Below are positions 23,410 to 50,156 of a DNA stretch of 64,000 nt, one piece after another. This DNA comes from Eublepharis macularius (taxonomy: Eukaryota; Chordata; Lepidosauria; Squamata; Eublepharidae). The stretch covers positions 190,440,311-190,504,310 of the forward strand of contig NC_072791.1 of the NCBI RefSeq assembly GCF_028583425.1. Direction: 5' to 3'. The position numbers and the translations under genes are program-made. Below the pieces are notes generated by a model, which had not been told where the DNA came from, made no database searches, and saw nothing but the letters and a program-made list of their open reading frames with translations. Every line of letters starts with the position of its first letter. The first letter of the stretch is position 1.

Positions 23410-23418
23410 TATGATTAG
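23410..23418 (+). repeat. Target-site duplication (left) of the giant foldback element
   Basis: TATGATTAG directly precedes the left end. TATGCTTAG directly follows the right end (50157-50165); 8 of 9 bases match. Confidence 0.7.
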
Positions 23419-24225
23419 GGGACGGGGTAAAAGCCGGAACGGGCCGGAACGGGCACTAAAGAAACGCCAGTGCCACAAAAAACAGTGGGATGGGTTAGAG
23501 ACACTCCAGAACAATATTTTAGAAATGAAAACTCTGGACTGCCCCGCTTTTATTAACCCGTTCCATGCCAAAAAGCTCCTGGAACAGGACAAAATAGCCC
23601 GGAAAGGGCACTAAAGAAACGCCAGTGCCACAAAAAACAGTGGGATGGGTTAGAGCCGCTCCAGATCAATATTACAGAAATGAAAACTCTGGACTGCCCC
23701 GCTTTTATTAACCCGTTCCATGCCCAAAAGCTCCTGGAACAGCACAAAACAGCCCGGAACGGGCACTAAAGAAATGCCAGTGCCACAAAAAACAGTGGGA
23801 TGTGTTAGAGACACTCCAGAACAATATTTTAGAAATGAAAACTCTGGACTGGCACCCTTCAATTAAACCTTTCCATGCCAAAAAGCTCCTGGAACAGCAC
23901 AAAACAACCCAGAACGGGCACTAAAGAAACGCCAGTGCCACAAAAAACAGTGGGATGGGTTAGAGCCGCTCCAGATCAATATTACAGAAATGAAAACTCT
24001 GGACTGCCCCGCTTTTATTAACCCGTTCCATGCCAAAAAGCTCCTGGAACAGGACAAAATAGCCTGGAAAGGGCACTAAAGAAACGCCAATGCTACAAAA
24101 AACAGTGGGATGTGTTAGAGACACTCCAGAACAATATTTTAGAAATGAAAACTCTGGACTGGCACCCTTCAATTCACCCTTTCCATGCCAATATGCTCAC
24201 GGAACAGCACAAAACAGACTGCAGC
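23419..24225 (+). repeat. Left terminal inverted repeat: end sequence plus five 155-bp units
   Basis: Unit starts (GGGCACTAAA or equivalent) are at 23451, 23606, 23761, 23916 and 24071, exactly 155 apart. Two unit types alternate: one with ACACTCCAGAACAATATTTT (units 1, 3, 5) and one with GCCGCTCCAGATCAATATTA (units 2, 4), a 310-bp higher-order period. The fifth unit decays near 24200. The same five-unit design is inverted at the right end. Confidence 0.9.
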
Positions 24226-24640
24226 ATCTGTTGAAAGAGCTGAGTTCCAGAAAGAACTCAAACCAGTCAGGCATAGCACCAATGAGGCCCATCTCTGCCA
24301 CGTGGTTCTGAAAGATTGTTACCCAAAAGCTACCCATGTGGCTGTGGCTGTATCCCGTCCCTTAATGAAAGTACTTTGAACATGTCTAGGGTGCGGATCA
24401 GATACCAAAGAATTAACATAAAATGGGGCTTGGAGAATGGGAGGTGGAGGGGAGGGAGAAGCCTGGACTTGCTGTCTCCAGATAACTCTGCTAACACAGT
24501 GGGGAATTAACCAAACAAAAGCATTTTCGATGGGGAATTAACCAGACACAACACTTAAGGATCCCCTGGTGATGCAGCAGAGTTGTTGCTTGACAGCTGT
24601 GGCCAAATGGCTGAAACAAACTGAAATTGAATCCAGATAA
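24226..24640 (+). repeat. Left subterminal unique segment, inverted at 48950-49385
   Basis: The block with AGCCTGGACTTGCTGTCTCC, the GGGGAATTAACC pair and GGATCCCCTGGTGATGCAGC is present in inverted form at the right end. It ends in a short L2-like piece (codons for KLNPDK) shared by both ends. Confidence 0.85.
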
Positions 24641-25680
24641 GATGGAAGTGATGTTGGTTGGGAAGGGAGAGATTCTGCAGTGCTTTTAATGGTTCCCATC
24701 TGAGGAGGGGTACTAGCATTTATTTAGTGCCCCTTCTGTGGTGTTCCAGAAACATTTTGGCAGGGAAAGGGTTAATAAAAGTGTGCCAGTTCAATGTTTT
24801 CATTTCCTAACTATTGTTCTCGGGTGTCCTTAATGCTTTCCACTTTTTTATGGCACTAGCATTTCTTTAGGGGACAGGGTAAAAGCCGGAACGAGACGGA
24901 ACAGGCCGGAACGGGCACTAAAGAAATGCCAGTGCCACAAAAAAGAGGGGGATGTGTTAGAGAAACTCCAGAACAATATTTTAGAAATGAAAACTCTGGA
25001 CTGGCACCCTTTAATTAACCCGTTCCATGCCCAAAAGCTCCCGGAACAGCACAAAACAGCCCGGAACGGGCACTAAAGAAATGCCAGTACCACAAAAACC
25101 AGTGGGATGGGTTAGAGACACTCCAGATCAATATTTTAGAAATGAAAACTCTGGACTGCCCCGGTTTTATTAACCCTTTCCATGCCAAAAAGCTCCCGGA
25201 ACAGCACAAAACAGCCCGGAACGGGCACTAAAGAAATGCCAGTGGCACAAAAAACAGTGGGATGTGTTAGAGACACTCCAGATCAATATTTTAGAAATGA
25301 AAACTCTGGACTGCCCCGCTTTTATTAAGCCGTTCCATGCCAAAAAGCTCCCGGAACAGCACAAAACAGCCCGGAACGGGCACTAAAGAATCAGCCTGTG
25401 ATCTAGTGGTGCAGAAAAGCCTGGTGCTGCAGCTGCTGCCTATCCTCCTCACTTGGCTTGCCTTTGCCTCAGTTGCCCCATCAGTGATCCCTCTTGACCA
25501 GAGACACCAGCCACAGATGACCAATGATGAGGCAAGTGAGGCAAAGACGAGCCGAGGGAGACAGGCAGCAATAGTCCTTGGCTTCACTGTGGTGCTGCCT
25601 CCTGCTGGTGGCTTGTACTTGCATATTAGCCCATTATCTGTTGGATCTCCTCCAGATGAGGCAGTGTTGATGGAAGAGGG
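24641..25680 (+). mobile_element. Insertion private to the left arm, carrying a second copy of the element end
   Basis: The right arm lacks this roughly 1-kb segment. It holds a decayed inverted 155-bp unit (about 24734-24870), then a fresh end GGGACAGGGTAAAA beginning at 24871 followed by units starting at 24913, 25068, 25223 and a partial at 25378. About 290 bases with no repeat match follow (25391-25680). The second end abuts TTTCTTTAG inside the older unit. The other end of this nested copy was not found. Confidence 0.65.
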
Positions 25681-25817
25681 ATGGGACCAATGGTGAAGAA
25701 CCATTTTCCATGGCTTCTATGGCAACCCTGTCCACCCCCGTTGCCACGTCATAAAGATGAACTGAGTTTGATAACTGATGGGTAACTAGTGGAGTGATTG
25801 CAGAACGGGAGTAACAT

Positions 25818-25910
25818 GCCAGAGCCGCGACCCCCGGGGGCCCCCGGCCCGCCGCAGGCGGGGCGGGGGGCGTCGGGGGGAGCGGCGCAGCCATGACCCC
25901 CGGGGGCCCG
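25818..25910 (+). repeat. 66-bp GC-rich unit, about 1.3 copies (left arm)
   Basis: One full unit (CGACCCCCGGGGG...GGCGCAGCC) and the start of a second. It is the reverse complement of the unit expanded 17-fold at 47511-48632. Confidence 0.9.
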
Positions 25911-25960
25911 GCTGTCTGTGTCTCTGTGTGTCTCTGTGTGTCTCTGTGTGTGTCTGGGGA
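25911..25960 (+). repeat. (TGTGTCTC)n-type tandem repeat, left arm
   Basis: Short run of TGTCTCTG/TGTG units at the place where the right arm has the long GACGAA and GACAAA hexamer blocks. Confidence 0.85.
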
Positions 25961-27002
25961 TGTGGATGGGGATTTTTATTTTTGGCAACCTCTTCTACAT
26001 GCAAAAATTTGTTGGTACAAAGTTGTAATGTTATAAAATGGTAAACATTTCATAAAATTGTAATTTTACTAACAATCCAACTCAAATAAGTTTATAGACA
26101 ATTCAAACAGTATTGCTTCTATAATCATATTAGGCATAAATATTAAACATAACGTTTAACCATTAAGTAAAAAGTATTAAATACTCGGTAGAGATGGTTT
26201 GAAGGGTTTATCTTAAATCCTGAGCAGCTTGAAACCTTCAAGTGAGAACTGAAAACATGTTTCTCTGTTTTAGAGAAACTGCTTTTCAGTACAAAATAAA
26301 CGGGATGTATGTTTTTGTTGCACTCTCCCAACCAGGAGACAGACTCCTCCTAAGAGTTTAATGGCTTCTTTCATTAACAAACGCTAGTTGTTTTCATTAC
26401 GTGAGGTATCAAAATATAAATGTTTATTTAAATAAAACATAGAAAAATAGAACAGATGAACACAACAAGAATTAAGTTTCCTAGCATTTCTTAATGAAAT
26501 CTAACTCAGTCAGATTAACGATGAAATGCATTCAAGTTACCGTAGCACATATTACAAGGGTAAGTTTCCTGCCTAGATCTTCATGAGATTTCTTTTGGCC
26601 AAAACCCTGATCTGCTATTTGGATTACCATTTTTATATATTATCTTATGCAGAAATCTAAGATCTTTTCATATGATAACAAAGATAAATATCAAACCAAT
26701 CATAATTTAATTCTTTTTTACTATTTCCAATCATGTGACATTCTACCTAGCCAAAAGTACCACTGTGCCCAGCTGCAAGATAAGAGATATGGATAGTAAA
26801 AATGACAAGAAAAGTTACATGACCAGATCATCCTTGGTCTCTGCTAACAATTACACAACATGTATCTGATACTGTTCACTATTTTTAATTGGCTGTCAAA
26901 GATAAAGCACCAGTTATACACCATACTAGAAAAAGAACTACAGTGATGTTCATACAGCGTTATTTAGAATGCATATGTTTCACGAAGTATGTGTTCTAAA
27001 CC

Positions 27003-27190
27003 ATAATCAGCAGTCTACTGGTTTGAATCCCGCTACTGACATGAGCTCAGTAGGTGGCCTTGGGTCAGCCACTCCTCTCAGCCCCAGCTCCATTGTGGGG
27101 ATAAGAATAACACTAACTTGTTCACTGCTCTGGGTGAGGCACTAATATGTGTAGAAGAGCGGTATATAAGCACAGTTATTATTATTATTT
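27003..27190 (+). mobile_element. Sauria-type SINE, 5'-truncated (arm B)
   Basis: Same SINE as at 4070-4255, starting in the B-box and ending in an ATT-rich tail. Confidence 0.7.
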
Positions 27191-27964
27191 ATATTTCCAT
27201 GACACCATCCCTTGGCCTGTGAAATTAAGTATTTTGATAAATATGAAAGTGATACAAAATATAAATGCATTGCATAATGTGTGAGTGTACATATACAAAC
27301 TTTAAAAATTGTATTGGATAATACCGCAAAGCATGATTACTGAGAAAGCTGCTTTCACTGCTTTCAGTGTGGAGAGCTGCTTGTAGATCAAAACAACCTG
27401 ACGAGCTGTCTTCATACAGAGTACACTTGATTCTCTTGGCTTTCAATTCTGCTTTCGTTCAGCATGGGTAAATCAATGTGTCAGCAGTAAACATTTGTAT
27501 CACTCCTCTCTGAATGACCTTTCAAATTTTACTGCCTATCGTGTCAAAGCAATTAAAATTAACAATACAGTTACTAAGCTGCTAAGATCAATTAATGGCT
27601 CTTAGGCTTTATCTATTGATCTAGTGACATCTTCAAAACCCACAGGTAACAGACTATACATACTTCTCTTCTATCCACAATATATACACAACAATTGATT
27701 ACATATTCTTATCTTCTAAATTACATATTTAAATGACATATTCTTATCTCCTAAATTAATTAGTCAAACTCTTACATCAAGGATTGGTGACAAGTTGTGG
27801 ACAGACTATGCTTGGACAGAATGTACACTGAGAATAAATGACATCAAACAAATTGGAAACTAAATAAATCACTTTTATTTAACAAATAAATTTCTTCTGA
27901 AGTCTCTTTAGAAATTAAACAATAGAAACAAACTATGTGGCATTCCTCAAATCCACGTGTAGGA

Positions 27965-28910
27965 TGCTATGGAAGTGGTACTTAGAGGGAAATTAATCTC
28001 CGTTGCCTCTTGTCATGAAGAGCAAAAAGAAAACATTAGAAATGAAATGATATCTAGAATAAGAAAACTAGAAGATGAACACAAAAAAGGCCACCCAATC
28101 TATAAACTTGCTTGCATGAAAATTAGAGGAAAAAACCTCCTCACATTCTATGCAAGCTATTAAAGGCACCCAGGAAAAACTCAAACTAATTCTGTAAAAT
28201 TAGCCGATGTATTTGCTGAATACTACCAAACCATTTGTACATCAGACAATCCTGACACTAATCATATTTTAAATTATTTATCATCACAGGAAATTTGGAA
28301 AAAAACTCACAAGAACATAAACAATATCTGGACCAACCAGTCACAACAGAAGATGTTACAGTCACTATCAAATCCTTGAAAAAAATAACAAAGCTTCAGA
28401 CAGGGATGGATTCCCTGCCAAATTTTTACAAAAAAATACATTCGCCTACTTTCAACTCCACTAACTGCCACATGCAACTCTGTTATGTTAGGAGGTAGCA
28501 TCCCTCTATCTTGGTCAGAGGCTGAAATAGTAGTTACTCCAAAAAAGGAAAACCATATTACAAATACTAAATCTTCTCAACCAATACCCTTACTGAATCA
28601 AGACCAAAAGATCTTTACAAGCATATTTGCCAAAACATTGTCTAAATTTAAATAACCAACTACATTCACCTTGACCAGACAATACACGTAACACTTTAAC
28701 TATAATTTGATTAAGTGGAAATACCATATCTAAAACTTTTACTTCAAAAAATGGGTTTTGGCGACCAATTCTAAAATGCCATTAATGCTCTTTATCTTTC
28801 TCCAAAAGCTACAGTTAGGACTAACAATGTACATTCGATAGATATCCATATAGCAAGGGGAACTAGACAAGGCTGTCCCCTTTCCCCATTTCTGTTTGCC
28901 ATAACTATAG
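27965..28910 (+). pseudogene. L1-like ORF2 fragments (arm B)
   Basis: Same pieces as 5015-6410 but shorter: the pre-RT linker near 27969-28100, the RT SWSEAEIV region near 28510 and the GTRQGCPLSP motif near 28860. Frames are broken. Confidence 0.75.
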
Positions 28911-29090
28911 ACAGGGCCGGTGCTACCATTAGACCAACTAGGCAGCCGCCTTAGGCACAGACCTCAAGAGGGGCATAGTTTTATACAGATTACTTTCTTG
29001 AAAAAAATGCAACTGAGAAAACCTATCGAGCACCCCCTAAATGGTCCTGTCCACAGACATCAAGCAGCTCAAAAGCTCACCGTAACTTTT

Positions 29091-31652
29091 TTATTTATTT
29101 ATTTATTTATTTGATGTATACCCTGCCCTCCTCACAGATGGGCAAAGGGTGGCTAACAACATTAAAAAATACATTAAAATCACAGAAACATAAAATCAAT
29201 AATATTTTTTAAAAAATAATTAAAATAGTCCAGGAGCAGGCTATTTAAACAAATATTGGGAGTCCGTATACAGGCATGGCAGATGGCTGAGGGCAGCTCC
29301 GGAAGAAATGGTGGTCTTAGATGGAAGAAGAAGGACACTCGCTGGCACTCAGCCAAAGGCCCAGCAGAACATCTCCGTTTTACAAGCCCTGCAAACCTAT
29401 AACAGGTCCCACAGGGCCCAGATCTCCAGCGGGAGAGCATTCCACCAGGCCAGGGCCAGGGCAGAAAAAGCCCTCGCCCTGGTCAAGGCCAGATGGACGT
29501 CCTTTGGGCCAGGGACCACCAGGAGTTGCTTGTCTGCAGAGCGCAACACCCTGCAGGGGACGTAATGAAAGAGGCGGTCCCGCAGGTATGGAGGTCCCAG
29601 TCCATGAAAGGCTTTAAATACCAAGGTTAACACCTTGAACCAGATCTGGAACTCCACTGGAAGCCAGTGCAGCTAGCACAGCACATGATGAATGTGCGCT
29701 TGGATGGGCGTTCCGGTAAGGATGCATGCCGCTGAATTCTGGATCAGCTGTAACTTCCGGGTCAGACCCAAGGGCAGTCCAGGATAGAGTGAGTTGCAGT
29801 AGTCTAGCCTGGAGGTGACCGTTGCATGGATTACTGTGGCCAGGTCCTGTGGTGAAAGATAGGGCGCCAGTTGCCTGCCCTGTTGAAGATGAAAAAAGGC
29901 AGACCTGGCAACAGTCATGACCTGGGCCTCCATTGAAAGTGTAGCATCCAAGGTCACACCCAGACTCCTCACCATCAGGGAAGGTTTCAATTGTACCCCA
30001 TCAACAGCTGGGAGCCGGTTCCCAGCTCGATTGCCCCATGATCCAGACACAGAACCTCTGTCTTCAGGGGATTCAATTTCAGGCGACTCTGATGTAACCA
30101 TACCGTCACAGCCTCAAGACCCTTGACCAAGGAATCCAAAGCAAGATCGGACTGGCCATCTGTAATGATTCCAAGTAAATGTGTGCACGTATCTTTAAAT
30201 GCTTGATGAGATAGGTGAAGAGTGGGGGGTGAAGGAGACGGATGAGTGAGTGATAGGTGTCAGGCTATGGCATTCCAGACTTGATAGTCTGTTTCACTCC
30301 CTTCTGCAAGAAGACGAGGTCTTTTGATTTCAAAAGGTTTATTGTGAAAGACAGCATTCAAGCCCAGATGTGCATATTCCAGGATTAGAGATCCTGGCCG
30401 AGCAAAGCGTTGCTAGGAATGAATCATAGAGCAAAGGTTGTTACATTTCACACTCCCGGAGCCCAGCCTCCCCCCCGAGTTCATACAGCAAAACTTCTCA
30501 GAGGTGCGCTGAGCTGGCCAAGGTCGAAACAGCAGATAAGACAGGATCCTTTCCCATGGAATCGGCTCCTTGCAGGTGTTGCCTGGAGGGAAAGAAGTCT
30601 AAACACTACACGATTAAATATGGCGTTACTTAGGTTAAAACAGTTTCTGACAATATGATTGGTTGAGGACTGAGAGGGTGGGCGGAGTGAATGCAGTTTG
30701 AGACTGAGAGTAGAGAGAAAATTTTTAGTCAGAAGAAAGCAGGCTAGCTGTGTGCTGCCTGAATATGTTGAAGTGTTTATGAGAGAAATATGACCTGTGT
30801 GGAACCTGAACTGAGCATGTTTGTGAAAGGACACTCAGTCAGGGAAAGAGAGGCCAGCTGTGTGAATGAGAGTAAATGAAGTAACTTTAAGAACCGAGAA
30901 CTACGTTTATGAAACCGATACGCTTCTCGAATAAATAAAAGCTTATTTTTGTTTTGCTATATCCCAGTGTAGCTGTCATTGCTATATCCCATTCCTATCT
31001 TCAGGGCCACATAGAACCACGAAGGAGCCTGACGCTTAGGAACGTTACCAAAGGGAAAATTTAAATAAAATATCTTGGAATAAAATATTCCGGGTGGCAG
31101 CAGACTACCCAGAGGGTTAAGGGATAGATTAAAAGAAAAATCTACCCTAAAGAAAGTAAAGGTCATAACACCATCCATCAGCAGATAGAGCTGAGTTTCA
31201 TCCGCATACCAGTGACAACCTAGCCCAAAGCTGCGGGCTAACGGGGCAAGGGGGCACATATAGATGTTAAATAGCATCGGGGAAAGAATCGCCCCCTGAG
31301 GGATGCCACATACCAAAGAATGGTAAGCAGACATCTGTTCCCTGACTGCCACCCTCTGTCCTAGATTGTGAAGGAAGGAGTTCAGCCATTGCAGGGCTGT
31401 TCCACGAATCCCCACATCGGCAAGGCAATGGGTCAGAAGATTATGACTGACCATGTCAAATGCTGCTGTAAGATCTAAATGTATCAGCAGTGCCGACCCA
31501 CTCTGGTCCAGGTGTCGCCGCAGATCATCTGTGAGGGCAACCAGAGCCGTCTCTGTACCATGGCCAGGCCTGAAGCTGGACTGGAATGGATCCAGGATAG
31601 AGGCATCACCCAGGTATACCTGCAGCTGTTCCGCTACCCGCCCTCTCAATTG
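29091..31652 (-). pseudogene. L2/CR1-group LINE, 5'-truncated (arm B), split by an LTR
   Basis: Read on the minus strand: RT from a PFQSSFRPGHGTETAL region (near 31590) through LDLTAAFD, GIPQGAILSPMLFN and YADE, where the catalytic second Asp of YADD is replaced by Glu. After the LTR comes the C-terminal part: LKPSLMVRSLGVTLD, SRLDYCNSLYPGLP, LQLIQNSAA and VFKAFHGLGPPYL. The 3' end carries a (TTTA)n tail at 29091-29113. It is 5'-truncated and interrupted, so inactive. The same insertion is in arm C with about 1-2% difference. Confidence 0.85.
30258..31170 (+). mobile_element. Solo LTR-like insertion inside the L2 LINE (arm B)
   Basis: About 913 bases bounded by TGTCAGG... and ...CATAACA (TG...CA) interrupt the L2 frame exactly. 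An AATAAATAAA poly(A)-type signal near 30930 supports the + orientation. No clear target duplication (ATAGG left, CCATC right), so the ends are tentative. Arm C carries the same insertion at 41399-42316. Confidence 0.55.
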
Positions 31653-32238
31653 CTCAAAGTTATCTCAGAAGTCTCAGTCAACTTGAGAGGAACAATCCTT
31701 AGTGAAACTACTCCTTTTTAGCTCTCCAGAGAGCCAGCTAAAAAGAAGAAAGCAAACAAATTAAGTAACTGCAGACAAAAGTATCTCCTTTTCAAGTACA
31801 ACACAATTCTCTCTCTCATTGTCTCACAGCAAACATGAGAAGGGGGTGGGAGTAGAAGACACTCTGTTGTGCCAGCCAGGAAAAAGGTGGGGAAATAGCT
31901 TCCAATGCTACAAAAAGAAACTTTTCAGCAACTTGAGGAAGCCAAGCAAGAAGTGAGAAGGAAAACAAAAGGGAAAAGGTGGGAAACTGTCTCCAGAGCT
32001 AAGAAAAAAACCCACTTCATAGAGCAAACTGTATCCCAGCAACACCAAGAGAAGAGGCAGAGTGGAAAACACTAAAATCTTCACAGCTATTCTGCTGTGT
32101 CTGGAAAGAAATGGGCAGAAAGTCAGCTTCATGGCTGCAATAAAAGGGAGGAAAGTAGGGAAATTCTGCTGTAGCAATGCGCAGAGCATACTTGCTGCAG
32201 AGGAACAAGTGCAGGGAAAAATACCTCTGCACTAGAAC
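31653..32238. repeat. Conserved non-coding block of the composite (arm B)
   Basis: Matches copy A 6910-7490 and, inverted, C 40330-40910. It ends in the target duplication of the next LINE. Confidence 0.8.
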
Positions 32239-34789
32239 CTACAACTATATAGCCAAGCTTTTAAGGTTTCCTCAAAATCTGAAAATCCTTTAAAGAGTTA
32301 TGATGACCTTGCCCAATCCTTAAGGCCACTTTTGGTAGGTGCTCGAGAGGGAAAACTGGTCAAGACCAATTTGTCATCTAAACCTTGGTTTGATCAAAGC
32401 CGTATTTGTGCTAAAAATGCTTTAATCTATGCCTATAAGCTAGCACTGAGAGCTGATGAAAAGACCAGACAAGTTGCATATCGTTCTCTTTCATTTTTAA
32501 AAAAGAAATATAAATCACTGGTTGCCCGCTGTAAGAAAGAACATGCCAGAAAACTGTGGACCAATATAATTGAAGCAGCTACGAGCAAAAACTCAGTGGT
32601 GTTCTGGAAACTAGTGCCAAACCGCGCCTCCACAGCCGCCTCCCCCTTGGCTTCCTCTATCCCCCCAGATAAATGGACTTCTTTTTTCCAAAAAATGTAT
32701 GATGATCCTATTCCACCCCCTCCTGCCCTAACAATAGAAAATCTGGCCAAATGCCCCCCAGTTCATGCCAAAGAGGTAAAAGCTTATATTAGTCAGTTAA
32801 AGAATGCAAAAGCCCCTGGGCTTGATGGAATATCTCCAGAATTACTAAAAACAAATAAGGACTGGTGGGAAACTTTCCTAGCCTCCCTATTTACTTATAT
32901 TGATGAAACCGGCTACATCCCCAATGATTGGGGAATGGCTATAGTAGTCCCCTTCCATAAGAAGGGAAAGAAGGAGGATCCATCCAATTATAGACCAATC
33001 AGCTTACTAAGCATTGTAAGCAAGTTGTCTACAAAACATCTGCTGAAGAAATTTTTAGACTGGCTAGAACAGGAGGATATAATTGCTGATGAGCAAGCTG
33101 GGTTTAGAGCTGGCAGGTCAACAATAGATCACTGCCTAGTAATGCAACACCTTGTAGAGAAATACGCTACAGGAGACCAAGCATCACTTTACCGGGCATT
33201 TGTTGATTTAAAAGCAGCTTTTGACACAGTCTCTAGAAATAGACTTTGGAGGAAACTGCAGGGCTCCTCTATTGATAGGCGACTGCTGTCCCTTTGGGGG
33301 GCTATGCACAAGCAAACTGCCCTGAGTAAGGTGCAGCCGAATTGGGCATTTGACTGACCCCATTCAAACTTACAGGCAGGTGTACCTTCTAGCCCCCTTT
33401 CTGTTTATCTTCTACATCAACAATTTGGTAAACCTTTTGAATGCCCCTGGATTGCACCCTCCCAAATTAGCAAATAGGCACATTCACGTACTGGTCTATG
33501 CAGATGATGCTGTATTACTTTCTAGGACCCCCATAGGGCTGAAATGAGCCCTAAAAAAATTCTCCCAATTCTGTGATACTGAACACCTTCTAACTAATTA
33601 CCAAAAAACTAAGATCCTGGCTTTCGGTAAAAATCCAAAGATCAGACGATGGGAGCTTCAGGGGCATCAGTTAGAACAACTTACCAGCTTCAAATATTTG
33701 GGTGTAGTTTTGCAAGCCTCAGGTACCAAAACAACACATAGCAGCTTCATTGCTGATGTGGGAGAAAAAACAGCACACGGTATATTGAAATTCTATCAAT
33801 CACAAGGGGGGCAGTATGTACCGGCTGCACTCAGTTTGTTTAAAGCCAAACCATTGGCCCAATTAGTATACGGATCATTCTTGGGGCTGCCATCCTCCTC
33901 TTTCTCTCAACTTGAGAGAGTGCACGCCAAATTCCTTAGAGCTCTATTACAAGTGCCCAAATGCATGCCTAACTCATGGGTTAGACTGGAAACAGGAATG
34001 TTAAGGGTAGAGGCCAGAATCACCATCCTTTCAATTTTCAAATGGCTGTCAGGACGTCTAAACCCGCAAGGTCTGCTCCCTCTGTTATTCCAAGACAATC
34101 TAATTGGCAAAAGGCGACTCTGAAATCCCTGGGAAAATTGGGTCTTTCCCCTCAAAGTTTGCTAGTCATGGGGTTAGACCGAGCAAAATCACTCATTAAG
34201 CAGAGAATGACAGACATTGACAGACAAACATTTTCTTAGAGCACCAGGATTTATTTCTTCAGATACTACTAAATATATTGCCGCTCCTGCAGCCTATTTT
34301 TACTTTCTTGAATCCAGTAACTCCAGAAGGGCATTTGCTTTAGCTATAAGTTCAACTCTACCCTCTGCTGTTCTGGAAGGAAAGTTTAAAGCTGTCCATT
34401 ACTCTCTTAGGCCTTGCTCCTATCCCCTAAGAGAAATTGACTCAGTGGAGCACATCTTCTTCAACTGCTCAAGTCATAGTAAAATTAGAGCGGAAACCAT
34501 CAGTCCATCAGTAGAAAGATTCCCTGGAAGTTCAAATAAAATCAAACTTGATTATCTTTTGTCTGATCGGAATCACCAGACACCATGTCAAGTAGCAAGA
34601 TTCTGCGCCCAGGTCTACAAGCAACATAAATCACATAAGGCAGCTTAAACAACTAATTTATGATGATCTTATTTTTTTACTCTTATATTTATTCATCGTT
34701 CTTCCCCGGTATCCAGTCTCAACTGCTTTTAAACTGATTTGCAAATGGTTTTATATGTACTGGTCGCAGACTGTAATAATAAACTTGAC
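32239..34789 (+). mobile_element. Non-LTR LINE private to arm B
   Basis: Absent from A and C, which keep the empty site. It is flanked by TACCTCTGCACTAGAAC (32222-32238) and TACCTCTGCACTAAGAAC (34790-34807), a 17/18-base target duplication, and ends in AATAATAAACTTGACT. A truncated 5' end with a long duplication is typical of target-primed LINE insertion. Confidence 0.85.
32332..34648 (+). pseudogene. Reverse transcriptase of the arm-B LINE, frame-broken
   Basis: The first open part (32332-33357, 341 codons) has the RT entry motifs NAKAPGLDGIS, SNYRPISLLSI, EQAGFRAGRST and FVDLKAAFDTV. A frame change near 33340 leads to the second part with LAPFLFIFYINNL and an intact YADD near 33497. A TGA at 33546 and another frame change near 34120 follow, then a C-terminal stretch to 34648. 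It lacks the N-terminal endonuclease, as expected of a 5'-truncated copy. Clade is unsettled (R4/RTE-like or CR1-group); it is distinct from the L1 and L2 pieces here. Confidence 0.8.
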
Positions 34790-35024
34790 TACCTCTGCAC
34801 TAAGAACAGCAGAAATACCTGAACCTACTTCATGGGGTGAAATATCCTAGCTACCACCAGAAGAAGCTGAGAAATGGAGAAAAGCGGAGGGTGTGGTGTC
34901 GGTGTTGAAGAGAATGATAGCACATTGAAAGAGCTCCGTCTCTCCCATGCCTGAAATTTAAAATTTATGTTGAAAAGGTAAAGTAAAAATATTTACCCTT
35001 CCAACGTAAAGATACGCTAAGAGA

Positions 35025-35112
35025 TCCGAAAGGCAGATTCATATTTATTAAAGGCACTATAGAAAACCAAACTTACACATTTGCCTCAATTTATGCCCCA
35101 AACCAAGACAGC
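35025..35112 (+). pseudogene. L1 ORF2 endonuclease fragment (arm B)
   Basis: Encodes the DPKGRFIFIKG...YTFASIYAPNQD stretch, the L1 endonuclease segment with the conserved Y-A-P-N. It abuts the block shared with copy A at 17.22 kb, so a deletion junction lies here. Confidence 0.7.
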
Positions 35113-37945: not shown

Positions 37946-37999
37946 CTTCCTCTCTCAGGAATTGCTGTGTGGCATTGGAAGTTTGATGTTAAGTATTGG

Positions 38000-39560: not shown

Positions 39561-40904
39561 TTTTTTTTTTGCAGTTTTTACAGTACTCACACTTTCCTTG
39601 AACACCCCCCCCCCGCTTTTCCTCTGTGTGCTTTAATGAAATAGCTCCAAATTGTGAAACTTCTTTCTTAGAGTTTATATCATTTGTAGCAGGAGAACGG
39701 CATACTGCTTCCTCAGTGGTAGTTTCAACAAAAGCATAGGCATATTCTTGTTCTTTAATTGCTTTCTGTGTACAAAGGTATTTCAGGAAGAACCCCTCTT
39801 GCTTAGTTCTTTCTGCCTTTCGTTTTCAGAACTGAGATCCAGATAGTTGTTTTTTATCAGCCATAGTTCCCTAGAAAAAAAATGACTATTTCCTAAGTTA
39901 GTTGAAGATCAGTCCAGCATTAAGCCAGGACTGTAGTTAGCACACACCCACTTAGTCCAAGCCACGCAAGACAAGGAGACAGTTCAGTTTAGGGTGGAGC
40001 ATGTTGCATGGGAATGAAGCTAGCCAATCATGGGGTGAGCAATAGTGAGGTTATAGTAGTATGACAACCCATGTCATGTGACCCTTAACTCCAGCCTTTG
40101 CTGCTGGTGGAACAGATCAACTAGTGGACTGGAGGATCCTTGAAAACTTTACCACAATTGTATCCTGAGTATTAGTCCGCCTTCTGCTGCCCCTTCCCGT
40201 TTATTAATTTAGCTTGTGGCTGAGACCATATACTGGAGCCATAGTTGCTGAGTCCCAGGGGTTGTTATTGCTGACTTGTAAGTAGGGCATTCATATAGCT
40301 TTAGGGAAAGGTATGGGATCAGTTGCAAAGTTCTTAGTGCAGAGGTATTTTTCCCTGCACTTGTTCCACTGCAGCAAGTATGCTCTGCGCATTGCTACAG
40401 CAGAATTTCCCTACTTTCCTCCCTTTTATTGCAGCCATGAAGCTGACTTTCTGCCCATTTCTTTCCAGACACAGCAGAATAGCTGTGAAGATTTTAGTGT
40501 TTTCCACTCTGCCTCTTCTCTTGGAGTTGCTGGGATACAGTTTGCTCTATAAAGTGGTTTCTTATCTGAGCTCTGGAGGCAGTTTCCCACCTTTTCCCCT
40601 TTGTTTTCCTTCTCCCTTCTTGCTTGGCTTCCTCAAGTTGCTGAAACGTTTCTTTTTGCAGCATTGGAAGCTATTTCCCCGCCTTTTTTCCTGGCTGGCA
40701 CAACAGAGTGTCTTCTACTCCCACCCCCTTCTCATGTTTGCTGTGAGACAATGAGAGAGAGAATTGTGTTGTACTTGAAAAGGAGATACTTTTGTTTGCA
40801 GTTACTTAATTTGTTTGCTTTCTTCTTTTTAGCTGGCTCTCTGGAGAGCTAAAAAGGAGTAGTTTCACTAAGGATTGTTCCTCTCAAGTTGACTGAGACT
40901 TCTG

Positions 40905-43460
40905 AGATAACTTTGAGCAATTGAGAGGGCGGTAGCGGAACAGCTGCAGGTATACCTGGGTGATGCCTCTATCCTGGATCCATTCCAGTCCAGCTTCAGG
41001 CCTGGCCATGGTACAGAGACGGCTCTGGTTGCCCTCACAGATGATCTGCAGCGACACCTGGACCGGAGTGGGTCGGCACTGCTGATACTTTTAGATCTTA
41101 CAGCAGCATTTGACATGGTCAGTCATAATCTTCTGACCCATTGCCTTGCCGATGTGGGGATTCGTGGAACAGCCCTGCAATGGCTGAACTCCTTCCTTCA
41201 CAATCTAGGACAGAGGGTGGCAGTCAGGGAACAGATGTCTGCTTACCATTCTTTGGTATGTGGCATCCCTCAGGGGGCGATTCTTTCCCCGATGCTATTT
41301 AACATCTGTATGTGCCCCCTTGCCCTGTTAGCCCGCAGCTTTGGGCTAGGTTGTCACTGGTATGCGGATGAAACTCAGCTCTATCTGCTGATGGATGGTG
41401 TTATGACCTTTACTTTCTTTAGGGTAGATTTTTCTTTTAATCTATCCCTTAACCCTCTGGGTAGTCTGCTGCCACCCGGAATATTTTATTCCAAGATATT
41501 TCATTTAAATTTTCCCTTTGGTAACATTCCTAAGCGTCAGGCTCCTTCGTGGTTCTATGTGGCCCTGAAGATAGGAATGGGATATAGCAATGACAGCTAC
41601 ACTGGGATATAGCAAAACAAAAATAAGCTTTTATTTATTCGAGAAGCGTATCGGTTTCATAAACGTAGTTCTCGGTTCTTAAAGTTACTTCATTTACTCT
41701 CATTCACACAGCTGGCCTCTCTTTCCCTGACTGAGTGTCCTTTCACAAACATGCTCAGTTCAGGTTCCACACAGGTCATATTTCTCTCATAAACACTTCA
41801 ACATATTCAGGCAGCACACAGCTAGCCTGCTTTCTTCTGACTAAAAATTTTCTCTCTACTCTCAGTCTCAAACTGCATTCACTCCGCCCCGCCCACCCTC
41901 TCAGTCCTCAACCAATCATATTGTCAGAAACTGTTTTAACCTAAGTAACGCCATATTTAATTGTGTAGTGTTTAGACTTCTTTCCCTCCAGGCAACACCT
42001 GCAAGGAGCCGATTCCATGGGAAAGGATCCTGTCTTATCTGCTGTTTCGACCTTGGCCAGCTCAGCGCACCTCTGAGAAGTTTTGCTGTATGAACTTGGG
42101 GGGGAGGCTGGGCTCCGGGAGTGTGAAATGTAACACCCTTTGCTCTATGATTCATTCCTAGCAACGCTTTGCTCGGCCAGGATCTCTAATCCTGGAATAT
42201 GCACATCTGGGCTTGAATGCTGTCTTTCACAATAAACCTTTTGAAATCAGAAGACCTCGTCTTCTTGCAGAAGGGAGTGAAACAAACTATCAAGTCTGGA
42301 ATGCCATAGCCTGACACCTATCACTCACTCATCTGTCTCCTTCACCCCCGACTCTTCACCTATCTCATCAAGCATTTAAAGATACGTGCACACATTTACT
42401 TGGAATCATTACAGATGGCCAGTCCGATCTTGCTTTGGATTCCTTGGTCAAGGGTCTTGAGGCTGTGACGGTATGGTTACATCAGAGTCGCCTGAAATTG
42501 AATCCCCTGAAGACAGAGGTTCTGTGTCTGGATCATGGGGCAATCGAGCTGGGAACCGGCTCCCAGCTGTTGATGGGGTACAATTGAAACCTTCCCTGAT
42601 GGTGAGGAGTCTGGGTGTGACTTTGGATGCTACACTTTCAATGGAGGCCCAGGTCATGACTGTTGCCAGGTCTGCCTTTTTTCATCTTCGACAGGGCAGG
42701 CAACTGGCGCCCTATCTTTCACCACAGGACCTGGCCACAGTAATCCATGCAACGGTCACCTCCAGGCTAGACTACTGCAACTCACTCTATCCTGGACTGC
42801 CCTTGGGTCTGACCCGGAAGTTACAGCTGATCCAGAATTCAGCGGCACGCATCCTTACCGGAACGCCCATCCAAGCGCACATTCATCATGTGCTGTGCTA
42901 GCTGCACTGGCTTCCAGTGGAGTTCCAGATCTGGTTCAAGGTGTTAACCTTGGTATTTAAAGCCTTTCATGGACTGGGACCTCCATACCTGCGGGACCGC
43001 CTCTTTCATTACGTCCCCTGCAGGGTGTTGCGCTCTGCAGACAAGCAACTCCTGGTGGTCCCTGGCCCAAAGGACGTCCATCTGGCCTCGACCGGGGCGA
43101 GGGCTTTTTCTGCCCTGGCCCTGGCCTGGTGGAATGCTCTCCCGCTGGAGATCTGGGCCCTGTGGGACCTGTTACAGTTTTGCAGGGCTTGTAAAACGGA
43201 GATGTTCTGCTGGGCCTTTGGCTGAGTGCCAGCGAGTGTCCTTCTTCTTCCATCTAAGACCACCATTTCTTCCAGAGCTGCCCTCAGCCATCTGCCATGC
43301 CTGTATACGGACTCCCAATATTTGTTTAAATAGCCTGCTCCTGGGCTATTTTAATCATTTTAAAAAAATATTATTGATTTTATGTATTTTTTAATGTTGT
43401 TAGCCACCCTTAGCCCATCTGTGGGGAGGGCAGGGTATACATCAAATAAATAAATAAATA
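40905..43460 (+). pseudogene. L2/CR1-group LINE, 5'-truncated (arm C), split by an LTR
   Basis: Same insertion as arm B 29091-31652 in opposite orientation, with the same truncation point, the same YADE change and the same LTR. Its 142-codon segment at 42473-42901 differs from arm B at only two residues. Confidence 0.85.
41399..42316 (-). mobile_element. Solo LTR-like insertion inside the L2 LINE (arm C)
   Basis: TGTTATGACC...GCCTGACA, the inverted counterpart of 30258-31170, five bases longer. Confidence 0.55.
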
Positions 43461-43639
43461 CATAAAGTTACGGTGAGCTTTTGAGCTGCTTGATGTCTGT
43501 GGACAGGACCATTTAGGGGGTGCTCGATAGGTTTTCTCAGTTGCATTTTTTTCAAGAAAGTAATCTGTATAAAACTATGCCCCTCTTGAGGTCTGTGCCT
43601 AAGGTGGCTGCCTAGTTGGTCTAATGGTAGCACTGGCCC

Positions 43640-44690
43640 TGTCTATAGTTATGGCAAACAGAAATGGGGAAAGGGGACAGCCTTGTCTAGTTCCCCTTGC
43701 TATATGGATATCTATCGAATGTACATTGTTAGTCCTAACTGTAGCTTTTGGAGAAAGATAAAGAGCATTAATGGCATTTTAGAATTGGTCGCCAAAACCC
43801 ATTTTTTGAAGTAAAAGTTTTAGATATGGTATTTCCACTTAATCAAATGCCTTCTCTATATCAAAGGTCAGAAGTAATGCAGGGGTTTTGTATGCTACAC
43901 AGAAATTAATTATAGTTAAAGTGTTACGTTTATTGTCAAAAAGATTCCTTATTGGCATAAAGCCAGTCTGGTCAAGGTGAATGTAGTTGGTTATTTAAAT
44001 TTAGACAATGTTTTGGCAAATATGCTTGTAAAGATCTTTTGGTCTTGATTCAGTAAGGGTATTAGTTGAGAAGATTTTGTATTTGTAATATGGTTGTCCT
44101 TTTTTGGAGTAACTACTATTTCAGCCTCTGACCAAGATAGAGGGATGCTACCTCCTATCATAACAGAGCTGCATGTGGCAGTTAATGGAGTTGAAAGTAG
44201 GCGAATGTATTTTTTTGTAAAAATTTGGCAGGGAATCCATCCCTGTCTGAAGCTTTGTTATTTTTTTCAAGGATTTGATAGTGACTGTAACATCTTCTGT
44301 TGTGACTGGCTGGTCCAGATATTGTTTATGTTCTTGTGAGTTTCTTTCCAAATTTCCTGTGACGATAAAAAATTTAAAATATGATTAGTGTCAGGATTGT
44401 CTGATGTACAAATGGTTTGGTAGTATTCAGCAAATACATCGGCTAATTTTACAGAATTAGTTTGAGTTTTTCCTGGGTGCCTTTAATAGCTTGTATAGAA
44501 TGTGAGGAGGTTTTTCCCTCTAATTTTCATGCAAGCAAGTTTATAGATTGAGTGGCCTTTTTGTGTTCATCTTCTAGTTTTCTTATTCTAGATATCATTT
44601 CATTTCTAATGTTTTCTTTTTGCTCTTCATGACAGGAGGCAATGGAGATTAATTTCCCTCTAAGTACCACTTTCGTAGCACATGGAAAGA
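43640..44690 (-). pseudogene. L1-like ORF2 fragments (arm C)
   Basis: Counterpart of 27965-28910: RT GTRQGCPLSP near 43690, SWSEAEIV region near 44120 and pre-RT linker near 44600, frames broken. Confidence 0.75.
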
Positions 44691-45399
44691 GACTTCAGAA
44701 GAAATTTATTTGTTATATAAAAGTGATTTATTTAGTTTCCAATTTGTTTGATGTCATTTATTCTCAGTGTACATTCTGTCCAAGCATAGTCTGTCCACAA
44801 CTTGTCACCAATCCTTGATGTAAGAGTTTGACTAATTAATTTAGGAGATAAGAATATGTCATTTAAATATGTAATTTAGAAGATAAGAATATGTAATCAA
44901 TCGTTGTGTATATATTGTGGATAGAAGAGAAGTATGTATAGTCTGTTACCTGTGGGTTTTGAAGATGTCACTAGATCAATAAATAAAGCCTAAGAGCCAT
45001 TAATTGATCTTAGCAGCTTAGTAACTGTATTGTTAATTTTAATTGCTTTGACACGATAGGCAGTAAAATTTAAAAGGTCATTCAGAGAGGAGTGATACAA
45101 ATGTTTACTGCTGACACATTGATTTACCCATGCTGAACGAAAGCAGAATTGAAAGGCAAGAGAATCAAGAGCACTCTACATGAAGACAGCTCGCCAGGTT
45201 GTTTTGATCTACAAGCAGCTCTCCACACTGAAAGCAGTGAAAGCAGCTTTCTCAGTAATTATGCTTTGCGGTATTATCCAATACAATTTTTAAAGTTTGT
45301 ATATGTACACTCAAACATTATGCAATGCATTTATATTTTGTATCACTTTCATATTTATCAAAATACTTAATTTCACAGGTCAAGGGATGGTGTCGTGGA

Positions 45400-45597
45400 A
45401 ATATAAATAATAATAACTGTGCTTATATACCGCTATTTTACACATATTAGCGCCTCACCCAGAGCAGTGAACAAGTTAGTGTTATTCTTATCCCCACAAT
45501 GGAGCTGGGGCTGAGAGGAGTGGCTGACCCAAGGCCACCTACTGAGCTCATGTCAGTAGTGGGATTCAAACCAGTAGACTGCTGATTATGGTTTAGA
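45400..45597 (-). mobile_element. Sauria-type SINE, 5'-truncated (arm C)
   Basis: Reverse complement of the SINE at 27003-27190. Confidence 0.7.
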
Positions 45598-46353
45598 ACA
45601 CATACTTAGTGAAACATATGCATTCTAAATAACGCTGTATGAACTTCACTGCAGTTCTTTTTCTAGTATGGTGTATAACTGGTGCTTTATCTTTGACAGC
45701 CAATTAAAAATAGTGAACAGTATCAAATACATGTTCTTTAATTGTTAGCAGACCAAGGATGATCTGGTCATGTAACTTTTCCTGTCATTTTTACTATCCA
45801 TATCTCTTATCTTGCAGCTAGGCATAGTGGTACTTTTGGCTAGGAAGAATGTCACATGATTGGAAATAGTAAATAGTGGTTTGATATTTATCTATGTTAT
45901 CATATGAAAAGATGTTAGATTTCTGCATAAGATAATATATAAAAATGGTAATCCAAATAGCAGATCAGGGTTTTGGCCAAAAGAAATCTCATGAAGATCT
46001 AGGCAGGAAACTTACCCTTGTAATATGTGCTACGGAAACTTGAATGCATTTCATCGTTAATCTGAGTTAGATTTCATTAAGAAATGTTAGGAAAGCTGCT
46101 CAGGATTTAAGATAAAACCTTCAACCCATCTCTACCGAGTATTTAATACTTTTTAGTTAACGTTGAAAAGTTATGTTTAATATTTATGCCTAATATGATT
46201 ATAGAAGCAATACTGTTTAAATTATCTATATACTTATTTGAGATGGATTGTTTGTAAATTTACAATTTTATGAAATTTTTACCATTTTATAACATTATAT
46301 CTTTGTAACACAAAAGTTTTGCTTGTAGAAGAGGTTGCCAAAAATAAAATCCC

Positions 46354-46407
46354 ACTCCCCCCACTCCCCCCACTCCCCCCACTCCCCCCACTCCCCCCAC
46401 TCCCCCC
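46354..46407 (+). repeat. (ACTCCCCCC)6
   Basis: Six perfect 9-base units. The left arm has only GGGGATGTGGATGGGGAT at the equivalent place. Confidence 0.97.
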
Positions 46408-47106
46408 AAGACGAAGACGAAGACGAAGACGAAGACGAAGACGAAGACGAAGACGAAGACGAAGACGAAGACGAAGACGAAGACGAAGACGAAGACGAAG
46501 ACGAAGACGAAGACGAAGACGAAGACGAAGACGAAGACGAAGACGAAGACGAAGACGAAGACGAAGACGAAGACGAAGACGAAGACGAAGACGAAGACGA
46601 AGACGAAGACGAAGACGAAGACGAAGACGAAGACGAAGACGAAGACGAAGACGAAGACGAAGACGAAGACGAAGACGAAGACGAAGACGAAGACGAAGAC
46701 GAAGACGAAGACGAAGACGAAGACGAAGACGAAGACGAAGACGAAGACGAAGACGAAGACGAAGACGAAGACGAAGACGAAGACGAAGACGAAGACGAAG
46801 ACGAAGACGAAGACGAAGACGAAGACGAAGACGAAGACGAAGACGAAGACGAAGACGAAGACGAAGACGAAGACGAAGACGAAGACGAAGACGAAGACGA
46901 AGACGAAGACGAAGACGAAGACGAAGACGAAGACGAAGACGAAGACGAAGACGAAGACGAAGACGAAGACGAAGACGAAGACGAAGACGAAGACGAAGAC
47001 GAAGACGAAGACGAAGACGAAGACGAAGACGAAGACGAAGACGAAGACGAAGACGAAGACGAAGACGAAGACGAAGACGAAGACGAAGACGAAGACGAAG
47101 ACGAAG
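46408..47106 (+). repeat. (AAGACG)n hexamer block, about 116 copies
   Basis: Uninterrupted 6-base repeat over about 699 bases. All frames are open through it, giving Glu-Asp, Arg-Arg and (minus) Ser-Ser runs; these are products of the repeat, not genes. Confidence 0.98.
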
Positions 47107-47498
47107 ACAAAGACAAAGACAAAGACAAAGACAAAGACAAAGACAAAGACAAAGACAAAGACAAAGACAAAGACAAAGACAAAGACAAAGACAAAGACAA
47201 AGACAAAGACAAAGACAAAGACAAAGACAAAGACAAAGACAAAGACAAAGACAAAGACAAAGACAAAGACAAAGACAAAGACAAAGACAAAGACAAAGAC
47301 AAAGACAAAGACAAAGACAAAGACAAAGACAAAGACAAAGACAAAGACAAAGACAAAGACAAAGACAAAGACAAAGACAAAGACAAAGACAAAGACAAAG
47401 ACAAAGACAAAGACAAAGACAAAGACAAAGACAAAGACAAAGACAAAGACAAAGACAAAGACAAAGACAAAGACAAAGACAAAGACAAAGACAAAGAC
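47107..47498 (+). repeat. (ACAAAG)n hexamer block, about 65 copies
   Basis: Uninterrupted repeat differing from the previous block by one G-to-A change per unit, with a single sharp boundary at 47106/47107. Confidence 0.98.
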
Positions 47499-47510
47499 AG
47501 CCAGGCCCCC

Positions 47511-48650
47511 GGGGGTCGCGGCTGCGCCGCTCCCCCCGACGCCCCCCGCCCCGCCTGCGGCGGGCCGGGGGCCCCCGGGGGTCGCGGCTGCGCCGCTCCC
47601 CCCGACGCCCCCCGCCCCGCCTGCGGCGGGCCGGGGGCCCCCGGGGGTCGCGGCTGCGCCGCTCCCCCCGACGCCCCCCGCCCCGCCTGCGGCGGGCCGG
47701 GGGCCCCCGGGGGTCGCGGCTGCGCCGCTCCCCCCGACGCCCCCCGCCCCGCCTGCGGCGGGCCGGGGGCCCCCGGGGGTCGCGGCTGCGCCGCTCCCCC
47801 CGACGCCCCCCGCCCCGCCTGCGGCGGGCCGGGGGCCCCCGGGGGTCGCGGCTGCGCCGCTCCCCCCGACGCCCCCCGCCCCGCCTGCGGCGGGCCGGGG
47901 GCCCCCGGGGGTCGCGGCTGCGCCGCTCCCCCCGACGCCCCCCGCCCCGCCTGCGGCGGGCCGGGGGCCCCCGGGGGTCGCGGCTGCGCCGCTCCCCCCG
48001 ACGCCCCCCGCCCCGCCTGCGGCGGGCCGGGGGCCCCCGGGGGTCGCGGCTGCGCCGCTCCCCCCGACGCCCCCCGCCCCGCCTGCGGCGGGCCGGGGGC
48101 CCCCGGGGGTCGCGGCTGCGCCGCTCCCCCCGACGCCCCCCGCCCCGCCTGCGGCGGGCCGGGGGCCCCCGGGGGTCGCGGCTGCGCCGCTCCCCCCGAC
48201 GCCCCCCGCCCCGCCTGCGGCGGGCCGGGGGCCCCCGGGGGTCGCGGCTGCGCCGCTCCCCCCGACGCCCCCCGCCCCGCCTGCGGCGGGCCGGGGGCCC
48301 CCGGGGGTCGCGGCTGCGCCGCTCCCCCCGACGCCCCCCGCCCCGCCTGCGGCGGGCCGGGGGCCCCCGGGGGTCGCGGCTGCGCCGCTCCCCCCGACGC
48401 CCCCCGCCCCGCCTGCGGCGGGCCGGGGGCCCCCGGGGGTCGCGGCTGCGCCGCTCCCCCCGACGCCCCCCGCCCCGCCTGCGGCGGGCCGGGGGCCCCC
48501 GGGGGTCGCGGCTGCGCCGCTCCCCCCGACGCCCCCCGCCCCGCCTGCGGCGGGCCGGGGGCCCCCGGGGGTCGCGGCTGCGCCGCTCCCCCCGACGCCC
48601 CCCGCCCCGCCTGCGGCGGGCCGGGGGCCCCCGGGGGTCGCGGCTCTGGC
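47511..48650 (+). repeat. 66-bp GC-rich minisatellite, 17 full units plus a partial
   Basis: Units recur exactly every 66 bases from 47511 (GGGGGTCGCGGCTGCGCCGC start) to a partial 18th at 48633. The unit is mostly G/C, CpG-rich, and contains a CCCCCGGGGG self-complementary core and GCCTGCGGCGGGC. All frames are open across it because 66 is a multiple of three. The left arm has about one unit. Confidence 0.98.
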
Positions 48651-49385
48651 ATGTTACTCCCGTTCTGCAATCACTCCACTAGTTACCCTTCAGTTATCAA
48701 ACTCAGTTCAAGGTCTTTACTGTGACATGGCTTTGGCCTGGCATGTCGGTAGGACAACCTCTTCCTCTATGTTACTCCCATTCTGCAATCACTCCACTAG
48801 TTACCCATCAGTTATCAAACTCAGTTCATCTTTATGATGTGGCAACGGGGGTGGACAGGGTTGCCATAGAAGCCATGGAAAATGGCTTCAACATGGAAAA
48901 TGGTTCTTCAACATCACTTCCATCTTATCTGGATTCAATTTCAGTTTGTTTCAGCCATTTGGCCACAGCTGTCAAGCAACAACTCTGCTGCATCACCAGG
49001 GGATCCTTAAGTGTTGTTTCTGGTTAATTCCCCATCGAAAATGCTTTTGTTTGGTTAATTCCCCACTGTGTTAGCAGAGTTATCTGGAAACAGCAAGTCC
49101 AGGCTTCTCCCTCCCCTCCACCTCCCATTCTCCAAGCCCCATTTTATGTTAATTCTTTGGTATCTGATCCGCACCCTAGACATGTTCAAAGTACTTTCAT
49201 TAAGGGACGGGATACAGCCACAGCCACATGGGTAGCTTTTGGGTAACAATCTTTCAGAACCACGTGGCAGAGATGGGCCTCATTGGTGCTATGCCTGACT
49301 GGTTTGAGTTCTTTCTGGAACTCAGCTCTTTCAACAGATGCTGCAGTCTGTTTTATGCTGTTCCGTGAGCATATTGGCATGGAAA
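48651..49385 (-). repeat. Right subterminal unique segment
   Basis: Inverted counterpart of left 24226-24640 plus 25690-25817. It contains its own near-repeat: the ATGTTACTCCC(G/A)TTCTGCAATC...CAGTTATCAAACTCAGTTC stretch occurs at 48651-48710 and again at 48769-48830. Confidence 0.8.
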
Positions 49386-50156
49386 GGGTGAATTGAAGGG
49401 TGCCAGTCCAGAGTTTTCATTTCTAAAATATTGTTCTGGAGTGTCTCTAACACATCCCACTGTTTTTTGTAGCATTGGCGTTTCTTTAGTGCCCTTTCCA
49501 GGCTATTTTGTCCTGTTCCAGGAGCTTTTTGGCATGGAACGGGTTAATAAAAGCGGGGCAGTCCAGAGTTTTCATTTCTAAAATATTGTTCTGGGGTGTC
49601 TCTAACCCATCCCACTGTTTTTTGTGGCACTGGCGTTTCTTTAGTGCCCGTTCTGGCCTGCTTTGTGCTGTTCCGGGAGCTTTTTGGCATGGAACAGGTT
49701 AATAAAAGCGGGGCAGTCCAGAGTTTTCATTTCTAAAATATTGATCTGGAGTGTCTCTAACCCATCCCACTGTTTTTTGTAGCACTGGCATTTCTTTAGT
49801 GCCCGTTCCGGGCTACTTTGTGCTGTTCCGGGAGCTTTTGGGCATGGAACGGGTTAATAAAAGTGGGGCACTCCAGAGTTTTCATTTCTGTAGTATTGAT
49901 CTGGAGTGTCTCTAACCCATCCCACTGTTTTTTGTGGTACTGGCATTTCTTTAGTGCCCGTTCCGGGCTGTTTTGTGCTGTTCCGGGAGCTTTTGGGCAT
50001 GGAACGGGTTAATTAAAGGGTGCCAGTCCAGAGTTTTCATTTCTAAAATATTGTTCTGGAGTGTCTCTAACACATCCCCCTCTTTTTTGTGGCACTGGCA
50101 TTTCTTTAGTGCCCGTTCCGGCCTGTCCCGTCTCGTTCCGGATTTTACCCTGTCCC
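49386..50156 (-). repeat. Right terminal inverted repeat: five 155-bp units plus end sequence
   Basis: TTTAGTGCCC or equivalent marks units at 49485, 49640, 49795, 49950 and 50105, exactly 155 apart, the same number as on the left. The end reads ...TTTTACCCTGTCCC at 50143-50156, the inverse of the left end with one mismatch in 14. Confidence 0.9.

Follow-up and report, generated by a model that had tools for sequence, protein, structure and literature searches.

What is the structure at positions 23419-50156 of a 64,000-nucleotide stretch of Eublepharis macularius DNA (hereafter the window; C2:190440311-190504310 of the host assembly), where two long inverted arms face each other across a central loop, and how did such arms arise? 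A preliminary description made from the letters alone had proposed a foldback-type transposon of 26.7 kb with five 155-bp units at either end and a near-identical 9-bp duplication as flanks, and these claims held. The element covers 26,738 bp and its limits are exact to the base, GGGACGGGG beginning at 23419 and CCCTGTCCC finishing at 50156. Either end carries 5.0 units of 155 bp, and the 9-bp flanks agree at 8/9 positions, with a chance of about 1e-4 per pair of reaching eight or more. As in foldback elements, long inverted repeats made partly of tandem units surround a central segment. The structure is thus confirmed as a real 26.7-kb DNA transposon with inverted arms and as a member of a large family that shares its ends. 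It is probably a non-autonomous, cut-and-paste foldback element, moved by a transposase supplied in trans, with arms made by fold-back and palindromes that are themselves mobile.

We searched the host assembly (2.24 Gb, 72 contigs) with the family end pattern GGGACAGGGTAAAAKCCGGAACG, allowing up to two mismatches and using the reversed pattern as a control. The pattern occurred at 226 + 231 = 457 places and the control at none; exact searches with A-prefixed and T-prefixed ends gave 61 and 40 places, respectively, and the terminal sequence of family ends was GGGACAGGGTAAAA. The A- and T-prefixed places, 100 pattern places and the window end at 23419 made up 157 distinct ends (of about 457), among which neighbours less than 45 kb apart were arranged '+-' 16 times, '--' eight times, '++' four times and '-+' never. 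Flanks were read at 16 loci, comprising 15 of the 16 '+-' pairs (C6:69.32 Mb left out) and E9. A direct 9-bp duplication was present at 13 of these, exact at seven (E1, E4, E5, E6, E8, C4:126.96 and C5:120.13) and with one mismatch at six (the window copy, E3, E9, C3:89.03, C4:108.20 and C9:38.23), whereas E2, E7 and C5:101.7 had no direct repeat and instead an exact inverted 9-bp flank. A cross-locus control, which covered the eight direct cases and not the five later ones, yielded 0/56 matches at two or fewer mismatches. The smallest element measured 3.0 kb (E6) and the largest 38.2 kb (C3:89.03), with C5:120.13 at 35.5 kb. The ends therefore recur genome-wide in inverted pairs with direct repeats, as had been anticipated. 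Fixed termini with a target-site duplication at many sites are the mark of foldback elements, and a target duplication in the 9-11-bp range together with long terminal inverted repeats (TIRs) is that of Mutator-like elements.

Two other classes were rejected. An ordinary satellite is ruled out by the consistent ends and target duplications, in agreement with the preliminary description, though longer 155-bp arrays exist. For the P superfamily, registers of 7 and 8 bp failed, and a 9-bp register fitted all eight direct cases tested.

Family sequences were also seen in other settings. The 155-bp units form satellite-like arrays of several kb at C12:33969899-33975458, C2:92397650-92403181 and C65:11399-17655, and at C2:19982088-19986706 four same-strand ends spaced about 1.5 kb apart amount to tandem amplification of an end. 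Six of 30 loci (L009, L014, L021, L025, L030 and L031) have about 1.5 kb of outer flank in common, in blocks 93-98% alike; it seems that an element inserted into a GC-rich repeat which then spread. This shared flank contains a reverse-transcriptase-like stretch that we take to be CR1.

Within the window element, the claim of mirror-image arms stood in part. Six inverted blocks (23435-24656/50130-48909, 96.1% identity; 25758-25909/48710-48559, 98.0%; 25969-26230/46353-46093, 91.6%; 26477-27909/46094-44686, 96.1%; 27965-28680/44680-43966, 97.5%; 28705-32238/43848-40330, 98.0%) had a weighted mean identity of 97.0% over 7,327 columns, and a seventh, innermost block (35108-35857/37346-36590) was 91.2% identical over 761 columns, giving a seven-block mean of 96.5%. 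About 3 kb of each arm found no counterpart in the other, and a nested end with 3.2 further 155-bp units (24871-25390) was present in the left arm and not in the right, a scan of the window for the end motif showing only three ends. Similarly, of the layers said to be the same at both ends, the terminal motifs, arrays and subterminal segment are shared. The 66-bp GC-rich unit, by contrast, is present in 17.3 copies on the right (47504-48645), where the left side has a match of 152 bp, and the neighbouring short tandem repeats differ in sequence between the two sides.

The body of the element is also found in E3 (C2:124809612-124830518, 20.9 kb), which runs in the order end, array, subterminal segment, body, GC-rich units, subterminal segment, array, end. 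Its body from 18928 to 2330, reversed and minus a 6.1-kb long interspersed element (LINE) inserted in E3 and taken for an L1, corresponds to the left arm of the window element. A Pfam search of two open frames of the window and eight of E3 gave reverse transcriptase (RVT_1) as the sole domain. Of the retroelement debris previously reported in the arms, RVT_1 pieces are thus present inside, but no L1-type element was seen in the window copy. A retroelement as the mobile unit was rejected by inspecting the termini, the reverse-transcriptase pieces being internal. The 6.1-kb LINE, with long open frames, lies at different body positions in E3 (L044/L045) and E4 (L047/L048) and is 99.6% identical between them; because of this it was probably active recently. 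Among the 120 matches listed for a LINE open frame, most came from Podarcis and Anolis, with identities of 30-48%, which fits a squamate. E1, E2, E4, E5 and E8 are partly palindromic too, with differing junctions; for C4:108.2, C4:126.96, C5:101.7, C5:120.1 and C9:38.2 the reading covered the ends, and for C3:89.03 the ends and a minor part of the interior.

In four of the 13 loci with direct duplications, an additional, third end lies inside the element, and the host sequence beside it repeats the flank of the opposite side in inverted orientation. At E8 (C4:119.93 Mb), whose outer ends bear direct 9-bp repeats, 5.2 kb of the left host flank and 5.7 kb of arm recur in inverted form at the inner end, 99.87% identical over 10,918 columns; the mirror copy halts where 384 bp of the right end remain as a stub. 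C4:108.20 has its inverted flank on the same side as E8, and C3:89.03 and C4:126.96 present the mirror case, in which an inverted right flank precedes an inner left end (in each, 20/20 bases, all that was compared). The distance from a short left end to a second end beyond it is 1.4 kb at L013 and 0.7 kb at L015, and the nine bases before the second are the exact reverse complement of the nine before the first. The sequence between the two ends is presumed to be right flank, and both loci fit fold-back products from one side. E7 and E2 carry 1.1 kb and about 0.24 kb of inverted flank, respectively, without a stub, and the E2 palindrome including flank is 96.3% identical over 734 columns. This more diverged case argues against reading the E8 mirror as an artefact.

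The third end of the window copy, at 24871, deviates from the E8 pattern in that its preceding nine bases match each outer flank directly, at 6/9 positions. Such a nested end, like the clustered ends at C2:19982088-19986684 among others, would suit two elements, or a nested pair, that inserted head to head and later merged. This is nevertheless a distinctly unlikely origin, given that a single 9-bp duplication (8/9) spans both outer ends and that both arms copy one body, meeting across a 595-bp loop.

We then compared the window centre with the rest of the assembly. A 1-kb query had many related places among the matches listed, and six of 25 hand-picked clusters, the window included, had the loop flanked on either side by arm pieces, by visual count. 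The centres at C5:49875500-49876950 and C7:53237960-53239260 align colinearly, at 92% over 1,290 columns, and both are colinear with the window across the loop and right junction; the window left tip is without a short piece (about 180 bp) of these centres. At the C7 centre the arms are 97.2% alike over 289 bp. The same centre is thus present on three chromosomes, the comparison covering the centres of the C5 and C7 copies. Because it recurs in colinear form on two other chromosomes, these alignments suggest that the palindrome had a single origin and then spread as part of a mobile unit; alternatively, the C5, C7 and window centres may have folded independently at the same place. The loop sequence (35912-36352) was observed elsewhere as tandem arrays with a period of about 390 bp, for example at C2:121219687-121224014 and C1:85784280-85787165.

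The presence of the inverted centre at two other loci makes an assembly error less likely. Assemblies are known to fail at large inverted repeats, and the E8 copies are 99.87% identical, as would be expected if an inverted segmental duplication or an assembly artefact simply happened to include repeats. However, the window arms differ by 3-4%, a similar centre lies on other chromosomes, and the same ends recur at many loci with consistent footprints (13/16), on which grounds segmental duplication and misassembly were rejected; we give this explanation next to no weight. A less remote, though still unlikely, account is local formation of the arms: an initially smaller element at 23418/50157 would have been inflated later by inverted duplication inside fixed ends, and the 26.7-kb form itself would never have moved. 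E8 does show inflation within a fixed 9-bp duplication, and a fragment of the same body ends 5 kb away and is, at 6911-10210, 97.4% identical over 3.3 kb to right-arm 37600-40916, making local exchange possible. Against this, the colinearity with the C5 and C7 copies means that the centre probably predates the insertion, and the window flanks are direct rather than inverted.

To our knowledge, the origin of the long mirror arms of foldback transposons is unsettled. In the mechanism that we favour, the parent form would probably be a composite element some 15 kb long in which inverted ends made of 155-bp arrays enclose LINE pieces, as the layout of E3 suggests. A transposase supplied in trans, most likely Mutator-like, would recognise the GGGACAGGGTAAAAKCC ends, perhaps together with the 155-bp subterminal units, and insert the element with the 9-bp target duplication seen in the footprints. 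The inserted copy would subsequently break, possibly through the transposase itself, and the broken strand would fold back on itself and copy its own arm outward through the end and the target duplication into the host flank. Joining of this product to a short stub of the opposite end would yield a palindrome with a third, inner end, a structure that is observed. With its two facing ends, the inner palindrome could move as a unit and give rise to foldback elements like the window copy. Loci of the E8 type are what one would predict if the element, or the DNA next to it, broke and fold-back synthesis ensued. Hairpin-mediated foldback inversions, large-loop ones included, are described in yeast (excerpt of PMC7467729), and template switching has been argued at TIR transposons in animals (excerpt of PMC8277862). 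We advance only tentatively, as possible rather than probable, the full proposal of a vertebrate foldback family that is cut by a Mutator- or Rehavkus-like transposase and in which fold-back repair repeatedly builds end-spanning palindromes that become new mobile units, the largest of about 38 kb.

As the preliminary description had stated, no transposase is visible in the elements searched or frames tested. When 14 Mutator-like element (MULE) proteins were compared with 65 sequence records (elements and MULE locus), the best E value besides the MULE gene itself was 0.11. The host genome has 17 matches to PF10551, all above the curated cut-off. At L064 (C9:105210200-105212400), a 577-residue open frame has a MULE match just above the cut-off and a match to Transposase_mut that falls short of it; its named relatives belong to Sceloporus, Gekko, Heteronotia, Paroedura, Ptychodera and Ciona. 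The 8.2 kb around the gene contain only three weak end-motif matches, without an array. The relative P0008 has MULE, CG-1, Ulp1 and PHD above the cut-off, with no tie to the family ends, and in Sceloporus P0001 MULE, SWIM and CG-1 all fall below it. The 9-bp duplication and ends starting with GG presumably point to the Mutator superfamily, and by the likeness of its footprint and tandem-repeat ends the element may work in the manner of Foldback and Mutator elements. For several groups the target duplication is given as 9 or 9-11 bp in PMC6446971, which found no confirmed vertebrate MULE. Because the host genome and other squamates encode MULE-like proteins, the present results bear on the question, raised there, of whether MULEs are truly absent from vertebrates.

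Several points weigh against a mobile foldback element driven in trans and built by fold-back. The elements examined contain no transposase, and no MULE match lies near the 157 listed ends (of about 457), the nearest being 43.6 kb away. The window duplication matches at only 8/9 positions, and only part of the family was read. The arms are incomplete mirrors, left 32239-35107 and right 37347-40329 (about 3 kb) being mutually unmatched: the former matches E3, and the latter has no E3 match and a single match, to window fragment 6911-10210. Arms beside the C5 centre are only 81.0% alike over 458 columns, and the C5 and C7 copies were read at their centres and not at their ends. In three of the four loci with a third end, the inverted flank was compared over just 20 bases. 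At E8 the fold tip spans a loop of 3.56 kb, and the outer join falls within a T-run that offers no clear microhomology; it is conceivable that the near-perfect palindrome there is a library or assembly artefact.

The features of the window are collected in Table 1. Rfam and tRNA scans of the window returned nothing. The body fragment outside the element is split by a long terminal repeat (LTR) element at 10211-16968, which we take to be Gypsy; its LTRs are 98.8% identical and it is flanked by a 5-bp duplication, ACAGG. Positions 62254-62627 hold a pair of short tandem arrays (38 bp and 53 bp), with units that by eye look partly like reverse complements of each other. Elsewhere in the assembly, tandem repeats of about 61 bp that resemble one another were observed upstream of the MULE gene (L065 1-1459) and beside E1 (L008, L010).

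Table 1. Coordinates of features in the 64,000-nucleotide window
Feature	Positions	Strand	Remarks
Fragment of element body outside the element	3076-18055	+	no end motif found; 87-95% to E3
Left target-site duplication TATGATTAG	23410-23418	+	
Left terminal motif GGGACGGGGTAAAAGCCGGAACGGG	23419-23443	+	family motif, 457 ends
Left array, 5.0 x 155 bp	23444-24217	+	
Subterminal segment	24218-24656	+	common to right end (48909-49343)
Nested second end copy, GGGACAGGG + 3.2 x 155 bp	24871-25390	+	left arm only
GC-rich stretch	25758-25909	+	matches right-end 48559-48710
TGTGTCTCTG tandem repeat	25917-25956	+	
Left inverted arm	25955-35857	+	reverse match to E3 body; RVT_1 pieces
Central loop, 595 bp	35858-36452	.	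centre common to C5:49875500-49876950 and C7:53237960-53239260
Right inverted arm	36453-46353	-	matches E3 2193-3047 and 5922-18905
CCCACTCCC and AAGACG tandem repeats	46351-47498	+	
66-bp GC-rich units, 17.3 copies	47504-48645	+	
Subterminal segment	48909-49343	-	common to left end
Right array, 5.0 x 155 bp	49348-50126	-	
Right terminal motif GGGACAGGGTAAAATCCGG (minus strand)	50127-50156	-	
Right target-site duplication TATGCTTAG	50157-50165	+	

How does this family relate to known systems? Among the matches listed in the open-licence literature, judged by title and start of abstract, there was no vertebrate foldback family of this kind. The FB elements of Drosophila have repetitive TIRs and change structure frequently, like the family described here. 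Template switching at the element, as proposed here, is described for FB4 of Drosophila, but in FB/FB4 switching captures nearby genes (excerpt of PMC8277862), whereas in the present family the sequence mirrored appears to be the arm and flank of the element itself. If the proposed mechanism is true, the birth of foldback transposons is seen as intermediates within one genome. Loci with three ends and a mirrored host flank beside the inner end provide a signature by which such events could be tallied in other long-read genomes.

The preliminary description had regarded the architecture as undescribed, which was an overstatement: non-autonomous elements with tandem-repeat TIRs and shuffled modules are familiar from Tetris and Tm1. 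Tetris of Drosophila virilis is, as here, a non-autonomous, modular and rearranged foldback element for which a transposase was not found; its TIRs contain tandem repeats of about 220 bp, and the units likewise expand into satellite-like arrays. Only three structurally complete Tetris copies are reported, against hundreds of end motifs here, and the present family is set apart from what is described in the excerpt by elements reaching 38 kb and by third ends next to inverted host flank (PMC4079207). Tm1, a Mutator/Foldback element of root-knot nematodes, similarly has composite TIRs that vary in length and contain tandem motifs, together with 9-bp target duplications and mostly non-autonomous members; its 61 elements measure 0.17-2.5 kb and include one putative autonomous copy, compared with 3-38 kb and no coding member found here (excerpt of PMC3169594). 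Rehavkus and MULEs share the 9-bp duplications, Rehavkus has a minisatellite before its 3' TIR, and the host here encodes MULE-domain proteins; unlike in those groups, no transposase is tied to the family ends (excerpt of PMC6446971). Galileo, of the P superfamily, resembles the present family in TIRs extended by tandem repeats and recruited internal sequence, its longest copy of 9.0 kb consisting of two long TIRs, but makes duplications of 7-8 bp rather than 9 bp (excerpt of PMC4168063).

The suggestion that the element's size lies far beyond known vertebrate elements was likewise too strong. Teratorn of fish is a giant vertebrate DNA transposon which, like the elements here, has long inverted repeats and extra internal TIRs; it measures 41-182 kb and carries a piggyBac-type transposase and herpesvirus genes, none of which occurred in the ten frames tested here (excerpt of PMC6431247). 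At 35-38 kb with 9-bp footprints, the largest members of the present family stand far above Tm1 (2.5 kb) and Galileo (9.0 kb), with the virus-derived Teratorn larger still.

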